Assembly (NCBI GenBank): GCA_934408705.1
Contig: CAKRVL010000066.1
Span: 1 to 14,427, forward strand
Source: an uncultured Blautia sp.
GTDB taxonomy: Bacteria > Bacillota > Clostridia > Lachnospirales > Lachnospiraceae
Length of the DNA stretch: 14,427 nucleotides
Reading direction: 5' to 3'
Shown here: positions 5,778 to 14,237 of the stretch, one piece after another
Position numbering within the stretch: the first letter of the stretch is position 1
Layout: every line of letters begins with the position of its first letter
Made by a program: the position numbers and the translations under genes
Notes under the pieces: generated by a model
Database searches by the model: none
Seen by the model: the letters and a program-made list of their open reading frames with translations, nothing else
What the model was told of the DNA's origin: nothing

Positions 5778-6227
5778 TTATTCCAATAATCCTTTTACAA
5801 AATCGATTAATTTCGACACAAGTCCCTTGGCATCGTCCTTTGTCACACCCATATCCTGAAGCTTATTGTAAACAGAATTTACATCACTTCTAAGCGCATC
5901 CTCATCAATTTTCGCATCCAGAACCTTGCGTACTACAGATACAAGAGAATCTACATCGGAATCAGAAAGAGATACACCGAAATGATCTGCTGCCTGAGTG
6001 ACTGCACTTCTTACCTGGTCATCTGTAATATTCTGCTGATCTACCAGATCCTTGGCATACATAATAATGTCTACTGCTTTTCCCGGATCAGATGCCAGAA
6101 AATCAATTCCACTGTCCAGAAGACTTTCTACAACTTCTGTATCACCAGAAGCCATAACCGGAATAGGCATGGAGCAGGCAAGAACTCCTGCGAGAATAAG
6201 TGCTGCTGATTTTTTCATTTTTATCAT
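5778..6227 (-). CDS. Secreted small helical protein, DUF1002/YpuA C-terminal-like
   Basis: This 149-residue protein starts with a typical Sec signal peptide: MIKMKK, then a hydrophobic core and VMASG around residues 24-28, with likely cleavage after A26. The C18 is not in a good lipobox, so a lipoprotein is unlikely. The mature part is acidic and predicted helical. Two similar helical units can be seen, ITDDQVRSAVTQAADHFGV (66-84) and SLSDSDVDSLVSVVRKVLD (85-103), which resemble the C-terminal region of DUF1002 (B. subtilis YpuA) proteins. It is much shorter than a full DUF1002 protein. The ATG at 6227 follows AGGAGG at 8 nt, so the start is firm. It has its own promoter and is separate from the flanking operons. 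Role unknown; an extracytoplasmic or envelope location is inferred from the signal. Confidence 0.8.
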   Translation of the reverse strand: MIKMKKSAALILAGVLACSMPIPVMASGDTEVVESLLDSGIDFLASDPGKAVDIIMYAKDLVDQQNITDDQVRSAVTQAADHFGVSLSDSDVDSLVSVVRKVLDAKIDEDALRSDVNSVYNKLQDMGVTKDDAKGLVSKLIDFVKGLLE

Positions 6228-6643: not shown

Positions 6644-7522
6644 TTATCTTTTTAATTTATCAAAGGAATTAGCAAGATCTGCAAACTCCTTTAACGTAAG
6701 AGCTTCGCCTCTTACGTTCACCGGAATCCCGGTTTCAGCCATAACTTTCTCAATCTCTTCTTTCGAGAAATCAAGCTCAGGTGAATTCTTCAGCCCATTT
6801 ACCAGAGTTTTTCTTCTCTGGTTAAAGGATGCCCGGATCAGCCGGAACATCAGCTTCTCATTATCCACCTGTACCGGCGGCTCCTCATATCTGACCAGCT
6901 GAATAACTGCACTTCCCACCTTCGGTCTTGGCATAAAACAGTTCGGCGGAACATTTGCAATAATCTGCGGTCTGGCATAATACTGGACAGCCAGTGACAA
7001 AGCACCATAATCTTTCGTTCCCGGTCCAACCTGCATTCTGTCCGCTACCTCCTTCTGCACCATGATGGTGATAGAAGAAATAGGAACATGGTTTTCAAAA
7101 AGTCCCATAATGATCGGTGTAGTAATATAATAGGGCAGATTGGCAACCACCTTAATAGGCTTGCCACCATTTTTCTCCTGCGCCAGTGCAGCAATATCCA
7201 CCTTCAGGATATCCTCATTGATCACCGTCACATTATCCCAATCCTTCAAGGTATCATTTTCCAGAATGGGAATCAATGTTTTATCAATCTCTACAGCTAC
7301 AACCTCTCTTGCAGCTTCTGCCAGATACTGCGTCATGGTTCCAATACCCGGTCCGATCTCCAGCACAAAATCATCCTTAGTGATCTGGGATGCCTCTATT
7401 ATTTTTTCCAGGACATGTGTATCAATAAGAAAATTCTGACCAAACCTTTTCTGGAAAGCAAAATTATACTTTTGAAGAACTTCAATGGTATATTTCGGGT
7501 TTCCTAAATAAGGTCTGGTCAT
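6644..7522 (-). CDS. rsmA: 16S rRNA (adenine1518-N6/adenine1519-N6) dimethyltransferase
   Basis: RsmA (KsgA) uses SAM to dimethylate two adjacent adenines in the 3' hairpin of 16S rRNA, a late 30S assembly check. The 292 residues carry RFGQNFL (26-32), SAM motif I VLEIGPGIGTMT (53-64), acidic VAVEID (75-80), catalytic motif IV NLPYYITTP (128-136), MVQKEVADRM (154-163) and FMPRPKVGSAV (196-206). FNQRRKTL (233-240) in the C-terminal helical domain is also typical. The ATG has a GAGG site about 9 nt upstream. The gene begins 25 nt after the TPR/AAA gene and is the last of the run, ending at the terminator. Loss of this enzyme is the classical cause of kasugamycin resistance. Confidence 0.96.
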   Translation of the reverse strand: MTRPYLGNPKYTIEVLQKYNFAFQKRFGQNFLIDTHVLEKIIEASQITKDDFVLEIGPGIGTMTQYLAEAAREVVAVEIDKTLIPILENDTLKDWDNVTVINEDILKVDIAALAQEKNGGKPIKVVANLPYYITTPIIMGLFENHVPISSITIMVQKEVADRMQVGPGTKDYGALSLAVQYYARPQIIANVPPNCFMPRPKVGSAVIQLVRYEEPPVQVDNEKLMFRLIRASFNQRRKTLVNGLKNSPELDFSKEEIEKVMAETGIPVNVRGEALTLKEFADLANSFDKLKR

Positions 7523-7547: not shown

Positions 7548-10100
7548 TTATTTTGAAAAATCTTTCTCATAGAGAACCGTAAATCCGTCACGGTCTACTC
7601 TCTTCTTCTTGTTAAATTTCAGAAGTCCACCCTGGGATTTCGCCATTGCCGCATCAAGCATATCCTTAACCGCACCAATATTCATAGGCTGGTCTTCCTT
7701 CTGATTTACACCGATCAGATTATATAATGCAAGCATTCCCATCTGGTCAATCTTATAACCATTCTCCTTAGTGTAAACTCTTGCAAAATTTACAAGCTCA
7801 TCATTAGTAAACACCGGAATATTGATCATAGATGTGAACTTTTTGGCAAATTTCGGGAATCTTGCGATCAGCTTGCGCATTCCGATCTTCTCATCCTCAA
7901 TAATAACTGTAAGTCCGTCAGTGCGGAACTCCATAGCCTTATCCAGAATATCCACTGTCTCCTGTGTAAGCTGATTTGCATTCTCAATTACCAGGAAACC
8001 GCCACGAAGCTTATTAAGCACTCTGGCAACATCCATTCCATTCAGCTGCTCCGCGAATACATAAGCAACCTTTGATGCCGGCAGATTCAGTTCTTTACAG
8101 ATTGCCGGAATCAGACTTGCGATCAGTCTTGTCTTTCCGGTTTCCTTACCACCCATAACGATTACGTTACCAGTCTTGGAGGTTTTATCAGCTGCAGCCA
8201 TCTGCACATCACAAAGTGCACTGATCAGCTGATCCTTCATTCCCGGAACCTTCACAAAATATGTAAACAGCTTCTTCTCATCATCAGAAAGTGCTTTCTC
8301 TCTCGGAACAATGTCAGATGGATTCGTCTTATCCTTAGGCTGAATGGACTCGATGAACTGCTCAAGCTCTTCTTCCTCGGAAAGAGGACCTTCCTCCTCT
8401 TCGCTTTCCTCTTCATCCTCATCAAAAGCGAAATCTAACTCATCATCCTCAGATTCCTCTGCCATATCCTCATCAGAATCATCCGGTTCTTCCTCTGCAT
8501 CTTCAGTCTCTGCTATATCATCCAGAACAGGAGAAGCTTCTTCATCCTCTTCCTCTTCTTCTCCGATGCTTTCACGAAGAAGCTTTGCAATAAATTCATC
8601 CTCGGACATAGAATCTTCGTTAGCTTCCGCCTTCTTATCCTCTTTATGTCCGGCAGGACCATTCATAAACTCATCCTCTGCAGCCTGAAGATCCTCCTCG
8701 GAAAGGAATTCTTCTTCCTCAAGCTCTACAACAGGCTTCTTTACCTCCGGAGTATCTATAATTTCTTCCTCTTCCGGTGTAATTACTTCCTCCGGAATTT
8801 CCGCAGCCTCTTTAATCTCTCTATTCTCTTCTTTTACCTTTTCTTCATCCGGCTTCTCATCAGGAATCTCAATTCCCTGGGCGGAAGCAGCTGCCAGAAT
8901 TGTATCTTCCAGATTAAAATTGGAAAAATCAAATTCTGCTTTTACCTCTGTCACATCATCAGGATCATTCTTATCGCTGAAAAGATTATTCTGTGCAGGC
9001 GCCTTCGGAACCTCCATCTCTTCCGGTGAAATATTCTTCATGGAATCCGGAATATTCAGCTTAGGCATTTTCAGATTCTCTGCAGGTTTCTCTGTTTCTG
9101 CAGAAGATACGCTTTCCTCTTCTGCTGTCTTAGTTTCCTCTTCTACAGCACTCTTTGCCTTATCCTTGCCAGTCTCCGGCTCAAGCTCCGGCACACTTGC
9201 ATATTCCTTCTCAGAAGCAGGATCTCTCAGCATCTCCTCCTGAACCTCTTTCGTTTCCTCAGAAGAAACAATGCTGTCTTCCATTTCATCCAGCTTACGG
9301 TTTCCGAAAATATCGCGAAGACCTTTGGAAATTTTGTCCTGAAGACTCTCTACTCCATTCAGATCCTCATTCTTGATCTGAATACTTTCAATGCTGTCAT
9401 TTGCTTTATTCTCAGCTTCAGCTGCCTTCTCCTCTTCCTTGGCTGCCTCCGCTTCCTCAGGCTTCAGAAGCTTCGGTACAAACTGCTGCTCATACCGCTC
9501 TTTTTCTTCGCCGGTGAGGGCACCCATGCGCTGCTTCAGATCCATCGCCTTCATTACGTAGCCACCCTCATTAAACCAGAGAATGATCTCATTGCAAAGC
9601 TCAAGGCATTTCTCCTTGTCTCCATCCTGATAATACAGCTTGGCAAGCTCATAAGACCATTTTTCGGTAAATTCCTTCTCCTTATAATCCTCCAGAACTT
9701 TAATCTGCTCTGCAAGTGGAGATTTCTTCTCCTTCAGGATCTTATATTTCAGAATATACTGTGTATTGTCGTTAGGAGCAACCTCTCTGTATTCCTGATA
9801 AAATTCTACCGCCTCGGAAATCTGTCCCAGCTTAAGGGAAACTTCTACAAGACGATAAAGAATGTTCTTACCGATAGAGGCTCTGTGATAAGCCAGCAGG
9901 AAAATCTCCTTACTGTCCTCATAGCGCTTATTAGCAGCATAGATCTCACCAACCACACAAAGGGTACGAACATTTTTCACACGGCGCCAGTCAATGCTGT
10001 CCACAACATTCATGGCTCCCTTATAGTCTCTCTGTTCTACTAAATGATTAATCTCTTCAAGTTTAACCCGAAATTCCTCTTTATCCAAATTTTTCACCAA
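7548..10100 (-). CDS. TPR / acidic-linker / degenerate CbxX-SpoVK-type AAA+ protein
   Basis: This 850-residue protein of unknown function has three parts. Residues 15-190 are amphipathic helical pairs of TPR type. Residues 200-600 are low complexity and extremely rich in E and D, with poly-E runs near 441-448, 513-521 and 561-579, so probably disordered. Residues 605-825 form an AAA+ domain: Walker A GGKETGKT (650-657), then GGFLVIENANQL (700-711), which aligns with GGVLFIDEAYSL of CbxX/SpoVK. The Walker B Asp-Glu is thus E706-N707, and the arginine-finger site aligns with K754 in FPKFAKKF, suggesting weak or no hydrolysis. No membrane segment is seen. Start is a TTG (10100) or overlapping GTG (10097) with a poor ribosome site. 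It sits between recF and rsmA, 52 nt after recF, where gyrB is common. A role tied to replication or ribosomes is only a context guess. Confidence 0.85.
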   Translation of the reverse strand: MVKNLDKEEFRVKLEEINHLVEQRDYKGAMNVVDSIDWRRVKNVRTLCVVGEIYAANKRYEDSKEIFLLAYHRASIGKNILYRLVEVSLKLGQISEAVEFYQEYREVAPNDNTQYILKYKILKEKKSPLAEQIKVLEDYKEKEFTEKWSYELAKLYYQDGDKEKCLELCNEIILWFNEGGYVMKAMDLKQRMGALTGEEKERYEQQFVPKLLKPEEAEAAKEEEKAAEAENKANDSIESIQIKNEDLNGVESLQDKISKGLRDIFGNRKLDEMEDSIVSSEETKEVQEEMLRDPASEKEYASVPELEPETGKDKAKSAVEEETKTAEEESVSSAETEKPAENLKMPKLNIPDSMKNISPEEMEVPKAPAQNNLFSDKNDPDDVTEVKAEFDFSNFNLEDTILAAASAQGIEIPDEKPDEEKVKEENREIKEAAEIPEEVITPEEEEIIDTPEVKKPVVELEEEEFLSEEDLQAAEDEFMNGPAGHKEDKKAEANEDSMSEDEFIAKLLRESIGEEEEEDEEASPVLDDIAETEDAEEEPDDSDEDMAEESEDDELDFAFDEDEEESEEEEGPLSEEEELEQFIESIQPKDKTNPSDIVPREKALSDDEKKLFTYFVKVPGMKDQLISALCDVQMAAADKTSKTGNVIVMGGKETGKTRLIASLIPAICKELNLPASKVAYVFAEQLNGMDVARVLNKLRGGFLVIENANQLTQETVDILDKAMEFRTDGLTVIIEDEKIGMRKLIARFPKFAKKFTSMINIPVFTNDELVNFARVYTKENGYKIDQMGMLALYNLIGVNQKEDQPMNIGAVKDMLDAAMAKSQGGLLKFNKKKRVDRDGFTVLYEKDFSK

Positions 10101-10152
10101 CTTTCCATAGTTAATGCCAGTTTAGCATATCACTTACTACTTCGCAAGCTTA

Positions 10153-11241
10153 TTATATAGGCTGATACACCTGCCCGGCCACAACGTGAAACACTTTATT
10201 TATTTTAAACTGATGGCTGATAAAATCATCCAGACCGGTACATGTGATCATAGTCTGGATGTCATGAATGCTCTCCAGAAGATAATTCTGACGGCTGCTG
10301 TCCAGCTCGGAAAGTACATCATCCAGAAGCAGAACCGGCTTGTCATGAATAATCTTCTCCACCAGATAAATCTCCGAAAGTTTTAAGGAAAGGGCTGCTG
10401 TTCTCTGCTGCCCCTGAGAGCCATATTTACGGATATCGATTCCGTTCACCGCAACCATCAGATCATCCCTGTGTGGCCCGGAAGAGGTCATTTTCATCCG
10501 AAGATCCCGGTCACGGTTGCGAAAAAGACTCTGCTCCAGCTCTTCACTTTTTACACTTGGCTCATAAATAACTTCTATATTCTCAATCCCACCGGTAAGA
10601 TTTCTGTGAATATCCTTGATGATCTCATTCAGGGATTCTACAAATTCCTGTCTTTTCTCAATAATCTTGCGTCCATAGGTTACAAGCTGCATATCCCACA
10701 CATCCAGTGTTGCTCCCAGCTCAGGCTGCCTGTACATATCCTTCAGAAGCTTATTTCTCTGATTCAGGATATGATTATAGCCGGCAAGATCGGTAAGATA
10801 CAGCTTATCCAGCTGGCAAAGCTCCGCATCCATAAATCTGCGCCGCTCTCCCGGACCGTTTTTGATAATATTCAGATCCTCCGGGGAAAAGAAAACCAGG
10901 TTCACCACTCCCAGAAGCTCCCTTGCCTTCTTTATGGGAAGTCCGTTGATTGCCACTCCCTTAGCCTTATTTTTACGAAGATGCATATCGATCTTGTAAG
11001 ACATGGAAGCCTTCTCAACCATCATTCGGATGTGGGATTCCTCCTGGTCAAAACGGATGATCTCCTTATCCTTGCTGCCCTTGTGTGACTTACTGGTTCC
11101 ACAAAGATAAACTGATTCCAGGATATTTGTTTTACCCTGGGCATTATCCCCATAGAAAATATTAGTTCCCTTGTCAAAATTAAGCTCCAGTGATTCATAA
11201 TTTCTGAAATTGCTTAATTTTATGGATTCAATATAAGCCAT
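10153..11241 (-). CDS. recF: DNA replication and repair protein RecF
   Basis: RecF is an SMC-like ABC ATPase that binds gapped DNA and, with RecO/RecR, helps load RecA at stalled forks. The 362 residues show Walker A YGDNAQGKTNILE (30-42), the RecF FFSPEDLNIIKNGPGERRRF block (117-136), the ABC signature YGSQGQQRTAALSLKLSE (273-290) and Walker B PVLLLDDVLSELD (302-314). SSGPHRDD (253-260) is another typical family segment. The ATG lies 1 nt after the yaaA stop, so the two are translationally coupled, with the ribosome site inside the end of yaaA. Tandem TAA codons end it (10155-10150). Confidence 0.97.
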   Translation of the reverse strand: MAYIESIKLSNFRNYESLELNFDKGTNIFYGDNAQGKTNILESVYLCGTSKSHKGSKDKEIIRFDQEESHIRMMVEKASMSYKIDMHLRKNKAKGVAINGLPIKKARELLGVVNLVFFSPEDLNIIKNGPGERRRFMDAELCQLDKLYLTDLAGYNHILNQRNKLLKDMYRQPELGATLDVWDMQLVTYGRKIIEKRQEFVESLNEIIKDIHRNLTGGIENIEVIYEPSVKSEELEQSLFRNRDRDLRMKMTSSGPHRDDLMVAVNGIDIRKYGSQGQQRTAALSLKLSEIYLVEKIIHDKPVLLLDDVLSELDSSRQNYLLESIHDIQTMITCTGLDDFISHQFKINKVFHVVAGQVYQPI

Positions 11242-11242
11242 T

Positions 11243-11458
11243 TTACTCGTTTCCTGACAGAACCTTCACATCCTGGCCATTATAGGAAATAACATCACCG
11301 CCATAAACCTTACGGCCTCTTCTGGTATCTACCTCTCCGTTAACCTTTACAAGCCCGTCACCGATCACATATTTTGCTTCAACACCATCTGAAACAAGAT
11401 CGGCAAGCTTTAATGCCTGGCCAAGCTTAATAAATTCGTCTCTGATTCTGATTTCCAA
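11243..11458 (-). CDS. yaaA: S4-domain RNA-binding protein YaaA
   Basis: This 71-residue protein is almost entirely an S4 RNA-binding domain: IKLGQALKLADLVSDG, then VIGDGLVKVNGEVDTRRGRK (31-50), then the closing GDVISYNGQDVKV. In B. subtilis the equivalent gene lies between dnaN and recF, and the protein is implicated in ribosome assembly. Spacing is 20 nt from dnaN and 1 nt from recF, as usual in Bacillota. An AGGCAAAA-type site precedes the ATG. Confidence 0.93.
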   Translation of the reverse strand: MEIRIRDEFIKLGQALKLADLVSDGVEAKYVIGDGLVKVNGEVDTRRGRKVYGGDVISYNGQDVKVLSGNE

Positions 11459-11478
11459 TTTTTTGCCTCCACTTCCAC

Positions 11479-12594
11479 TTATCTTGCCTGATTCTGATTT
11501 ATGTTAACCGGCAGGATAAGATAAGTATATGTTTCCTCTTCATCCCTGATAAAGCACGGAGCCTTCGGGTTTACAAGATAAATATCAATAGTTTCATCAT
11601 CAATAACCTTAAGTGCATCGATAAGGAACTTAGGATTAAATCCTATCAGGATATCCTTTCCCTCTTTTTCAATATCAATATCCTCATTCATGGAACCCAT
11701 TGCAGAATCAATCTTCAGTTCCATACTGTTATCCGTAATATGAATAATGATTGGCTTCTTGTCTCCTTCTCTTACAAGAAGTGTGGCACGGTCAATACAA
11801 TCCAGGAATTCTTTTTTGTTAATGGAAAGCTTGGTCTCATAATCACTGGAAAGCATCTGGTCAATTCGGAAATATTCTCCCTCAATCAGACGGGAAACAA
11901 CCATAGTCTGGTCAAATTCAAATAAAATATGATTCTTTGTAAAGAAAATGCTGACTACATCATCCATTTCCCCGGATAATATCTTACTGATCTCATTCAG
12001 TGTCTTGCCAGGAACTACAACCTTGCGGTCAGAATAGTCCTTTTTCAAAGGCATTTTGCGGATAGCGATGCGATGTCCATCCAGAGAAACAATTTTCAGA
12101 CAATTATCCTTAATTTCAAACAGCTCACCAGTCATTAAAGTGTTGTTATCGTTGACTGCAATTGAGAATATTGTCTGATAAATCATGTTTTTCAATGTAT
12201 ATTGTGAGATAGTTAATGGTTCATCTCTTTCAATCATAGGAAGATATGCGAAATCTTCTCCTGATTTTCCCGGAATATTAAACTTTGCTTTTTCACATGT
12301 GATAGTTGCAGCAAATTTTTCATCTGTTTTAATAGTAACATCATTATCTGGAAGTCTTCGAATGATTTCATAGAAGATTTTTGCATTCAGTGCAACCATT
12401 CCTTTTTCTTCTATAGTACCATCAACGATGGTTTCAATCCCAAGTTCCATATCATTTGTAGTAAATTTGATCTGGTTAGTTGTTGCATCAATAAGAATAC
12501 ATTCCAGAATTGGCATGGTTGTTTTGGATGGTACAGCTTTTAATGAAATGCTGACGCTCTTCAACAAGTTACTTTTTGAGCAAATGATTTTCAT
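11479..12594 (-). CDS. dnaN: DNA polymerase III beta subunit (sliding clamp)
   Basis: DnaN forms the dimeric ring that tethers DNA polymerase III and repair factors to DNA. The 371 residues cover the three repeated clamp domains. Family segments include the N-terminal MKIICSKSNLLKSVSISLKA, AVPSKTTMPILECIL (20-34), FTTNDMELGIET and the C-terminal YTYLILPVNI. The last residues continue a little past the usual R-L/M-P-V/M end (NQNQAR). The ATG is preceded by AAAGGAAG, and a DnaA box (12597-12605) lies between that site and the start codon, so DnaA binding at the origin could directly affect dnaN expression. It is separated from dnaA by the putative oriC. Confidence 0.97.
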   Translation of the reverse strand: MKIICSKSNLLKSVSISLKAVPSKTTMPILECILIDATTNQIKFTTNDMELGIETIVDGTIEEKGMVALNAKIFYEIIRRLPDNDVTIKTDEKFAATITCEKAKFNIPGKSGEDFAYLPMIERDEPLTISQYTLKNMIYQTIFSIAVNDNNTLMTGELFEIKDNCLKIVSLDGHRIAIRKMPLKKDYSDRKVVVPGKTLNEISKILSGEMDDVVSIFFTKNHILFEFDQTMVVSRLIEGEYFRIDQMLSSDYETKLSINKKEFLDCIDRATLLVREGDKKPIIIHITDNSMELKIDSAMGSMNEDIDIEKEGKDILIGFNPKFLIDALKVIDDETIDIYLVNPKAPCFIRDEEETYTYLILPVNINQNQAR

Positions 12595-12872: not shown

Positions 12873-14237
12873 TTAAGTTTGTGGATTAATTTTTTTCTTT
12901 AAAGTCTCGACGGTGCTTTGCAGCTGTTCGTTCGTCTGCAGCTCCTTTTCGATCTTTTCTACACCATGCATAACGGTTGTGTGGTCACGATTTCCAAGAT
13001 ACTGGCCAACATTTTTCAGAGGGATGGCAAGTATTTCACGGCAAAGGTACATAGCCACCTGTCTGGGCATAACGATCTTGGAGCTTCTCTTATTTCCGCA
13101 CAGATCTGCAGTGCTGACATTAAAGTGTTCAGCAACCATAGAGATAATATATTCTGCAGTAATCTGTTTATTCTCATTCGGTGCGATGATATCCTTCAAA
13201 GCCTGTTCAGCAAGCTCAAGTGTAACCTCTTTTTTCTCCAGCTTCGCGTAAGCAACTACCTTATTAAAGGCACCTTCCAGCTCACGGATGTTAGATTTAA
13301 TATTATTTGCAATATATTTGATAACATCCTCACTTACATTATAGCCATCCATGTCTTCCTTCTTATGAAGAATAGCCATCCTGGTCTCATAATCCGGCAG
13401 TGTGATATCTACGATCAGTCCCCATTCGAATCTTGAACGGAAACGCTCATCCAGAATCTCCATATCTTTCGGCGGTTTATCAGAAGATATGATGATCTGC
13501 TTATTAGCGCTGTAAAGACTGTTAAATGTATGGAAAAATTCCTCCTGTGTAGATTCCTTTCCTATAATAAACTGAATATCATCGATCAGAAGGACATCAA
13601 TGTTACGATATTTCTCACGGAATTTGCTCATTGCAGTATTATTTCCGTTACGGATCGTCTCGATCAGCTCATTGGTAAATTCTTCACTGGTAACGTAGAG
13701 AACCTTGCTGTTATCATCATTTTCGATAATAAAGTGAGCGATGGAATGCATCAGATGGGTTTTTCCCAGTCCGGCGCCACCATAGATAAAAAGCGGATTG
13801 TAGGTATTTCCAGGAGATTCCGCTACGGCCAGGGCTGCTGCCTGAGCCAGTTTGTTGTTGCTTCCTACGATAAATGTATTAAATGTATATTTCGGATTAA
13901 GATTTGCTTCCTCACATCTGTCCTTAAAACGGCTGTTCTGGTCAGGTGTAGCTTCGGAAGTGGATTTCTTCGCCGGAACATCTTCTGGAAGGATAAATTT
14001 TACTTCGCAGTCAGCCATTCCGGTGACTTCGCTTATGGTAACCTGCAGAGGCAGCTTATAATTCTTATTAATGTAGCTTAATCGTACTTGATCTGAAGCA
14101 ACGATGGTGACTACATTTCCGCTGACGTCATAAACCTTAAGGGGTTTCAGCCAGGTGTCGAAGCGAACATCGGAAAGATCGTGCTCCTTTTTCACAATTT
14201 CCAGGATTTCATCCCATTTTTCTATTACTGTGCTCAT
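12873..14237 (-). CDS. dnaA: Chromosomal replication initiator protein DnaA
   Basis: DnaA binds DnaA boxes and, as an ATP-bound filament, melts the origin and loads the helicase. At 454 residues it is standard length. Domain I is about 1-85, followed by a short linker (85-110). The AAA+ core contains YTFNTFIVGSNN (117-128), Walker A GGAGLGKT (153-160), Walker B VLLIDD (215-220), box VII DERFRSRFEWG (263-273) and sensor II NIRELEGAF (316-324). Domain IV holds the DNA-binding signature GNRDHTTVMH (415-424). The ATG follows GGGAGG at close spacing. Upstream is a structured leader with a possible leader ORF; downstream is the probable oriC. Confidence 0.98.
   Translation of the reverse strand: MSTVIEKWDEILEIVKKEHDLSDVRFDTWLKPLKVYDVSGNVVTIVASDQVRLSYINKNYKLPLQVTISEVTGMADCEVKFILPEDVPAKKSTSEATPDQNSRFKDRCEEANLNPKYTFNTFIVGSNNKLAQAAALAVAESPGNTYNPLFIYGGAGLGKTHLMHSIAHFIIENDDNSKVLYVTSEEFTNELIETIRNGNNTAMSKFREKYRNIDVLLIDDIQFIIGKESTQEEFFHTFNSLYSANKQIIISSDKPPKDMEILDERFRSRFEWGLIVDITLPDYETRMAILHKKEDMDGYNVSEDVIKYIANNIKSNIRELEGAFNKVVAYAKLEKKEVTLELAEQALKDIIAPNENKQITAEYIISMVAEHFNVSTADLCGNKRSSKIVMPRQVAMYLCREILAIPLKNVGQYLGNRDHTTVMHGVEKIEKELQTNEQLQSTVETLKKKINPQT

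Follow-up and report, generated by a model that had tools for sequence, protein, structure and literature searches.

A TPR protein of Lachnospiraceae with a disarmed CbxX-type AAA+ domain, probably a non-motor scaffold

Across the Lachnospiraceae, a protein that we call X couples an N-terminal TPR domain to a C-terminal AAA+ domain that, judged from sequence and alignment, keeps the CbbX fold without the Walker B glutamate, the arginine finger, the sensor-2 arginine, or the usual pore loop. We consider X to be probably a non-motor scaffold. What is new is the family-wide disarmed CbxX-type AAA+ domain coupled to a TPR domain, as a variant of the pseudo-AAA+ domains, which as such are already known. 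The gene lies in a 14,427-nt contig of an uncultured Blautia sp.; this whole stretch of DNA is referred to below as the window.

Architecture of X and comparison with known AAA+ proteins

Gene X (846 aa) occupies positions 7548–10088 on the reverse strand of the window, with a TTG start codon at 10088. Another TTG, listed at 10100, is unlikely to be the start; the codon at 10088 is favored because a Shine–Dalgarno-like box (GGTGA, 10094–10098, reverse strand) lies 5 nt ahead of it and is present in 12 of 14 relatives, and because a shifted frame in L007 and an in-frame stop in L008 make the upstream codon unusable. All 14 relatives compared have TTG or GTG at the codon corresponding to 10088.

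The N-terminal domain (residues 1–207; 9468–10088, reverse strand) scored over the cut-off of Pfam TPR_19, and its AlphaFold2 (AF2) model, built from a 114-row alignment (pLDDT 95.2), has 12 helices, or about six repeats, with TPR proteins as the best structural matches in the PDB. It is followed by an acidic low-complexity linker (residues 208–592; 8313–9467, reverse strand) with 36% D+E, 10% K+R, and a charge of about −100; the linker is net-negative in all 115 relatives, with a median charge of −80. The last 251 residues (596–846; 7551–8303, reverse strand) form a pseudo-AAA+ domain of the CbxX/CbbX type, which matched the NCBIfam CbbX model at E 7.9e−10 and whose profile was matched by CbbX structures at E 2e−20; its AF2 model (pLDDT 93.2) also had CbbX as its best structural match. 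A preliminary description had proposed a CbxX/SpoVK-like AAA+ domain joined through an acidic linker to TPR-like helices and had suggested structure prediction for both ends of the protein; the profiles, models, and structural matches agree with it at both the TPR and the CbbX-fold end. Two ideas about the linker were rejected. Binding of a basic AAA domain to it fitted the window, where the domain has a pI of 9.2, but the median pI was 6.03 over the 89 of 109 fused domains surveyed, and three linker motifs that had seemed conserved were confined to close relatives, two occurring in 12 of 115 proteins each and the third in 4 of 115.

Within the AAA+ domain of the window (all positions on the reverse strand), alignment places an intact Walker A motif, GGKETGKT, at residues 646–653 (8130–8153). 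The sequence LNGMD at residues 682–686 (8031–8045) marks the site where the pore-loop-1 stretch is seven residues shorter than in CbbX. E702–N703 (7980–7985) stand in place of the Walker B D-E, and K750 (7839–7841) replaces the arginine finger.

CbbX, the red-type Rubisco activase (PDB 3SYK, 3SYL, and 3ZUH), resembles X in AAA fold and sequence profile and shares Walker A with the window's lineage, but X lacks the Walker B DE, the Arg finger, the sensor-2 Arg, and the canonical pore loop 1, and adds the TPR domain and the long acidic linker. CbxX-type AAA domains like that of X also occur in SpoVK (E 2.4e−8) and in EccA, the AAA+ protein of type VII secretion (E 1e−5 to the window protein; EccA1, 9lur, matches the profile at E 2e−11). 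EccA has an N-terminal TPR followed by the AAA domain, but the catalytic and pore elements are lost in X, which furthermore has the long acidic linker; no type VII secretion genes were recognized by eye among the ORFs of the window. Assignment to any of the three equivalogs was rejected, with X scoring 38.5 bits against a cut-off of 459.25 for CbbX (TIGR02880), 33.3 against 422.95 for SpoVK (TIGR02881), and 24.2 against 466.65 for EccA (TIGR03922).

Among the listed hits, the public names of close relatives of X were “CbbX protein,” “tetratricopeptide repeat protein,” and “hypothetical protein,” and most were unnamed. The record P0019 calls a Blautia X “CbbX protein,” a name that would wrongly imply an active Rubisco activase. 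A search of open-license PMC full text (titles and abstract starts) found no paper describing X, in keeping with the earlier remark that this architecture has no described function. A survey of Lachnospiraceae reports TPR gene clusters in gut-restricted strains, with X not named in the excerpt considered here (PMC3971600).

Distribution of X and loss of motor elements

A scan of one genome per species yielded 15 X loci, in Blautia and other Lachnospiraceae or Clostridia records. When the TPR profile (A2) was run on a draw of 150 genomes from the Lachnospiraceae, the family to which Blautia schinkii belongs, it matched 145 of them, with two strong copies in G047 and a second, weak match in G056 and G059. 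Four of the five missed genomes nonetheless contain an X-type AAA domain, the frame reaching the contig end in G053, G020, and G117 and being interrupted ahead of the AAA domain in G148; only G022, a 1.2 Mb assembly, had none. In a draw from the order, the profile matched 82 of 196 genomes at E ≤ 0.001 but just 22 at E below 1e−28, and the weaker matches look like generic TPRs. A draw from the class gave matches at E ≤ 1e−12 in 7 of 196 genomes, including one (G506) with a different TPR protein. X is likely missing outside the Lachnospiraceae. The viral-contig scan found no relative, and the idea of a phage protein was set aside, the one PHROG match being of unknown function and covering the TPR alone. 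A role as a defense gene was likewise set aside, there being no PADLOC match for X at E ≤ 0.01.

The protein of G506 (L174) has a TPR similar to that of X (1.9e−22) followed by four CbxX AAA domains, the TPR-adjacent one degenerate, and L151 (G211, order draw) has a similar TPR (E 1e−15) followed by two canonical CbxX-type AAA domains; both are without the long acidic linker. L174 and L151 are possible relatives of the ancestor of X, the kinship of the TPRs being uncertain because a TPR-only protein scores almost as well (4.6e−13). In L160, L163, and L164, the last of three CbxX AAA domains is degenerate (Walker B D-H or E-H), a loss of the catalytic Glu separate from that in X.

For the comparison across the family, 116 loci were assembled: 100 of the 120 places selected from the family draw, 15 from the species scan, which is biased toward Blautia, and the window. 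One locus that begins within the gene (L012) was excluded from the 115 proteins and the 109 fused domains described below. With the final profile, and with only domain hits above 8 bits counted, the AAA domain was found within 107 of the 115 X proteins. These 107 domains, together with those of L152 and L154, gave 109 fused domains, which were compared with 6 split ones (the split domain of L149 being outside these six) and, as controls, with 21 CbxX domains that the same draws had supplied, of which 18 are canonical in both Walker motifs. Neither the AAA domains containing long inserts nor a few irregular rows entered profile A4 (85 rows). In L082, L090–L094, L097, L100, L104, and L109, a long low-complexity insert separates the AAA core from its lid, which nevertheless remains encoded.

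An intact Walker A motif is present in 57 of 109 fused domains and in none of the six split ones. The Walker B DE is present in a single X domain of 115, that of L131, which is itself without Walker A. An Arg occupies the finger column in 4/109 fused, 0/6 split, and 21/21 comparison domains (K in the window), and the sensor-2 column (GNAR) in 2/109 fused domains versus 18/21 comparison domains (G in the window). The replacement of Walker B by E-N and of the arginine finger by K, noted in the preliminary description for the window, therefore belongs to a family-wide loss; the alignment of orthologs at these two sites, which that description had recommended, shows a family trait and not an isolated variant. 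Its proposal of a nucleotide-binding scaffold fits the window's lineage, where Walker A is intact, and not for the family as a whole.

The pore-loop-1 segment has 22 residues in all 109 fused domains and 22–25 in the six split ones; it has 27–29 in the 21 comparison domains, 27 being the length in the three non-canonical ones. The segment past Walker B is 19 residues long in 102/109 fused and 6/6 split domains versus 23–28 residues in the comparison domains. The column of the pore-loop Tyr, which corresponds to CbbX Y114 when counted along the HMMER alignment, is a gap in 109/109 fused and 5/6 split domains and Y in 12/21 comparison domains, the edge of the deletion being aligner-dependent: MAFFT pairs the Tyr with a gap and HMMER with a residue, placing the missing seven residues right after the Y of VGQYI. 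At the shortened loop (LNGMD), Asn is found in 100/109 fused and 6/6 split domains; the 21 comparison domains have V, I, L, or S. In a quick tree of 63 rows, comprising a hand-picked subset of fused domains and all split and comparison domains, the fused and split X domains fell on one side of a branch with a support of 95, several branches being long.

In CbbX, as a passage of PMC5437159 reports, the Y114A mutant keeps ATPase activity and loses activase activity. The loss of the canonical pore loop does not by itself exclude remodeling by X, since CbbQ-type and plant Rca Rubisco activases remodel without the canonical aromatic pore-loop motif, according to a part of PMC5385338, and 42 of 115 X-type domains keep an aromatic residue elsewhere within the shortened segment. 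With the catalytic motifs absent as well, we rejected an active unfoldase; the earlier suggestion that X is not one is supported by the motif loss and strengthened by the shortened pore loop.

X might instead form mixed rings together with an active CbxX/SpoVK-type ATPase, in which it would be the inactive, regulatory subunit. Canonical CbxX-type proteins do occur in Lachnospiraceae, and red-algal CbbX tolerates one Walker-B-dead subunit, as stated in the same part of PMC5437159. However, only 54 of 150 genomes gave a SpoVK-type match (E ≤ 1e−20; none over the curated cut-off, with at most 16 candidates scored per genome), at places other than X, versus 145 of 150 for X in the same draw, so that an obligate mixed ring was rejected; the pore-loop stretch of X is also shortened, unlike that of a simple Walker B mutant. 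We regard a mixed ring in general as very improbable.

In six of the eight X proteins without a fused AAA domain, the domain is on a neighboring gene. The next gene carries it at the C-terminus in L134, L142, L146, L147, and L148; in L149, the next gene starts like the split-gene carriers and the AAA domain is in an overlapping second frame (10144–12180), so that this carrier looks frame-broken. L150, outside the 115, is likewise split. Of the five intact adjacent carriers, four have 828–1053 aa with a long A/E/K-rich stretch, and the fifth, that of L134, has only 260 aa. In L142, L146, L147, L148, and L150, a second large protein with an A/E/K-rich stretch and a C-terminal pseudo-AAA domain follows the AAA-less X. 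An MreB-like gene is next in L142, L146, and L148 and nearby in L149, whose member was named MreB by family search. Because the gene is fused in most species and the two parts are neighbors in others, this arrangement suggests that the TPR and AAA parts serve one function. In L137 and L143, no AAA domain was found in or beside X, the only hits in these genomes being at SpoVK-type places; the AAA module is therefore dispensable.

Another reading makes the AAA domain a relic in decay, with the TPR and acidic linker alone functional. In its favor, 52 of the 109 fused domains have lost Walker A, whose state changes at least nine times on the TPR tree (a quick tree in which 48 of the 117 inner branches are open and several end branches are long), long inserts split the AAA domain in some lineages, no AAA domain was found for two of the 115 proteins, and it evolves faster where Walker A is lost. 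The last point comes from AAA/TPR distance ratios over 31 automatically chosen, disjoint nearest pairs (87 rows without inserts), which repeated a comparison of 14 dN/dS pairs chosen by hand: the median ratio was 1.17 with Walker A intact (21 pairs, range 0.31–2.06) and 1.77 with Walker A lost (10 pairs, range 1.17–4.31), the ranges overlapping (Mann–Whitney p = 0.0005). Between the window and L001, however, omega was 0.037 for the AAA domain, 0.030 for the TPR domain, and 0.144 for the linker; the first two values point to purifying selection, and this similarity of AAA to TPR argues that there is no simple decay in the window's lineage. Moreover, the domain is kept in 107 of 115 proteins or on the neighboring gene, and a new Asn is conserved at the shortened pore-loop stretch. 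The similar AAA and TPR rates where Walker A is intact indicate that nucleotide binding, where kept, accompanies constraint on the whole domain. Overall, a mere relic seems improbable.

Genomic neighborhood and a possible link to JetABC

In the window, all on the reverse strand, recF (10153–11241; TIGR00611 over cut-off) lies directly upstream of X and rsmA/ksgA (6644–7522; TIGR00755 over cut-off) directly downstream, with dnaA (12873–14237; TIGR00362 over cut-off) as the oriC marker. Further along, a gene at 5778–6227 (reverse strand) encodes a predicted secreted protein of 149 aa that matches mainly the C-terminal part of relatives of about 300 aa; the short form (149–159 aa) is common to five other Blautia-type loci. 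The order dnaA-dnaN-S4-recF-X-rsmA characterizes Blautia and its near kin. A tally of neighbors across genomes, as the preliminary description had advised, was run on the 116 loci, with neighbor clusters named from one representative each (NCBIfam or Pfam, and PADLOC for JetABC; YaaA was below its cut-off). The neighbors differed by clade. The commonest single neighbor was glgB, downstream of X at 33 of 116 loci, followed by rsmA (downstream at 23 and upstream at 8); upstream neighbors included recR (16), recF (13), and JetC (9). The operon with dnaA-recF and rsmA thus stood for Blautia and its near kin and not for other clades, which have recR, JetC, glgB, or others, and we rejected it as a fixed functional context.

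Of 11 genomes, nine had dnaA and X on one contig with usable coordinates. The X–dnaA distance, expressed as 2d/L with genome sizes partly rounded, was at most 0.143 in eight of these nine (median 0.073; 0.636 in G064), a departure toward dnaA with a Kolmogorov–Smirnov p of 5.6e−6, or 3.4e−5 after leaving out one of G340 and G243, which look like close kin. In other Firmicutes, recF, recR, and rsmA are oriC-proximal. The evidence from neighbors and location therefore counts as one lead and not three.

JetC, the SMC subunit of Wadjet III in PADLOC, was detected in 21 of 150 Lachnospiraceae genomes with three candidates scored per genome. In 14 of these 21, X is downstream of JetC on the same strand within 1.9 kb: no ORF was called between them in 11 (with a 1.2 kb gap in G017), and one gene lies between in G129, G069, and G128. 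In the remaining seven, X is 7.8 kb off (G133) or on other contigs (six genomes). On the TPR tree, the Jet-linked X proteins fall into four separate positions. The order recR-jetA-jetB-jetC-X was found at 9 of 20 Jet loci, uninterrupted at seven and with small ORFs ahead of jetA at two (L192 and L193), and dnaX and ebfC precede recR in eight of the nine. JetD was not recognized at the 20 Jet loci examined, and in a PF09983 search for it 16 of the 21 JetC genomes had no match and the other five had copies on other contigs only. The JetABC genes at L185–L204, with no JetD recognized beside them, are possibly a chromosomal condensin related to a defense system. MksB of Corynebacterium glutamicum had no effect on chromosome organization, as far as the excerpted text of PMC10123090 goes.

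A narrower form of the scaffold reading would make X a partner of the nuclease-less JetABC condensin or of origin-proximal segregation. The recurrent JetC–X linkage, the lack of a recognized JetD at the Jet loci, and the nearness to dnaA in eight of nine genomes point this way. Against it, JetC was unmatched in 129 of 150 genomes (three candidates each), nearly all of which have X; X is elsewhere in a third of the JetC genomes; the shared locus may be an inherited oriC-proximal gene order; and X itself matched nothing in PADLOC. We give such a partnership a minor share of our confidence.

Proposed working of X and its meaning for Lachnospiraceae

In the non-motor scaffold that we favor, X would neither hydrolyze ATP in the usual way nor thread proteins, because the catalytic residues and the canonical pore loop are lost, and it is very improbable that the pseudo-AAA+ domain can still pull on a substrate. 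The TPR domain may dock one or more partners, and the charged disordered linker would act as a long, flexible, repulsive tether between the modules. The pseudo-AAA+ domain would then serve as a second docking or oligomerizing module. In the lineages with Walker A, including that of the window, bound ATP probably shapes this domain as a structural ligand or switch, and the other lineages would dispense with ATP.

More tentatively, X might take part in replicating, repairing, or organizing the chromosome, close to its origin. A chromosome-related role is our best guess, at a low probability, and glgB as the commonest neighbor is a fair counter-lead to it. The most far-reaching version would make X a Lachnospiraceae-wide chromosome hub derived from a former threading motor, in which an ATP-gated pseudo-AAA+ domain lacking the pore loop and the TPR array tether the origin region, recombination proteins, and sometimes the nuclease-less JetABC condensin to one another via the charged linker; this we find rather doubtful.

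The Lachnospiraceae belong to the most abundant bacteria of the gut. That we found no described function for a strongly conserved protein that nearly all of them have leaves a gap in the core biology of this family. The X family furthermore constitutes a natural disarmament series, in which ATP binding is kept, ATP binding is lost, the domain is in a neighboring gene, or the domain is apparently lost, while the TPR domain stays. This series makes the question of why the pseudo-AAA+ domain is kept directly testable.
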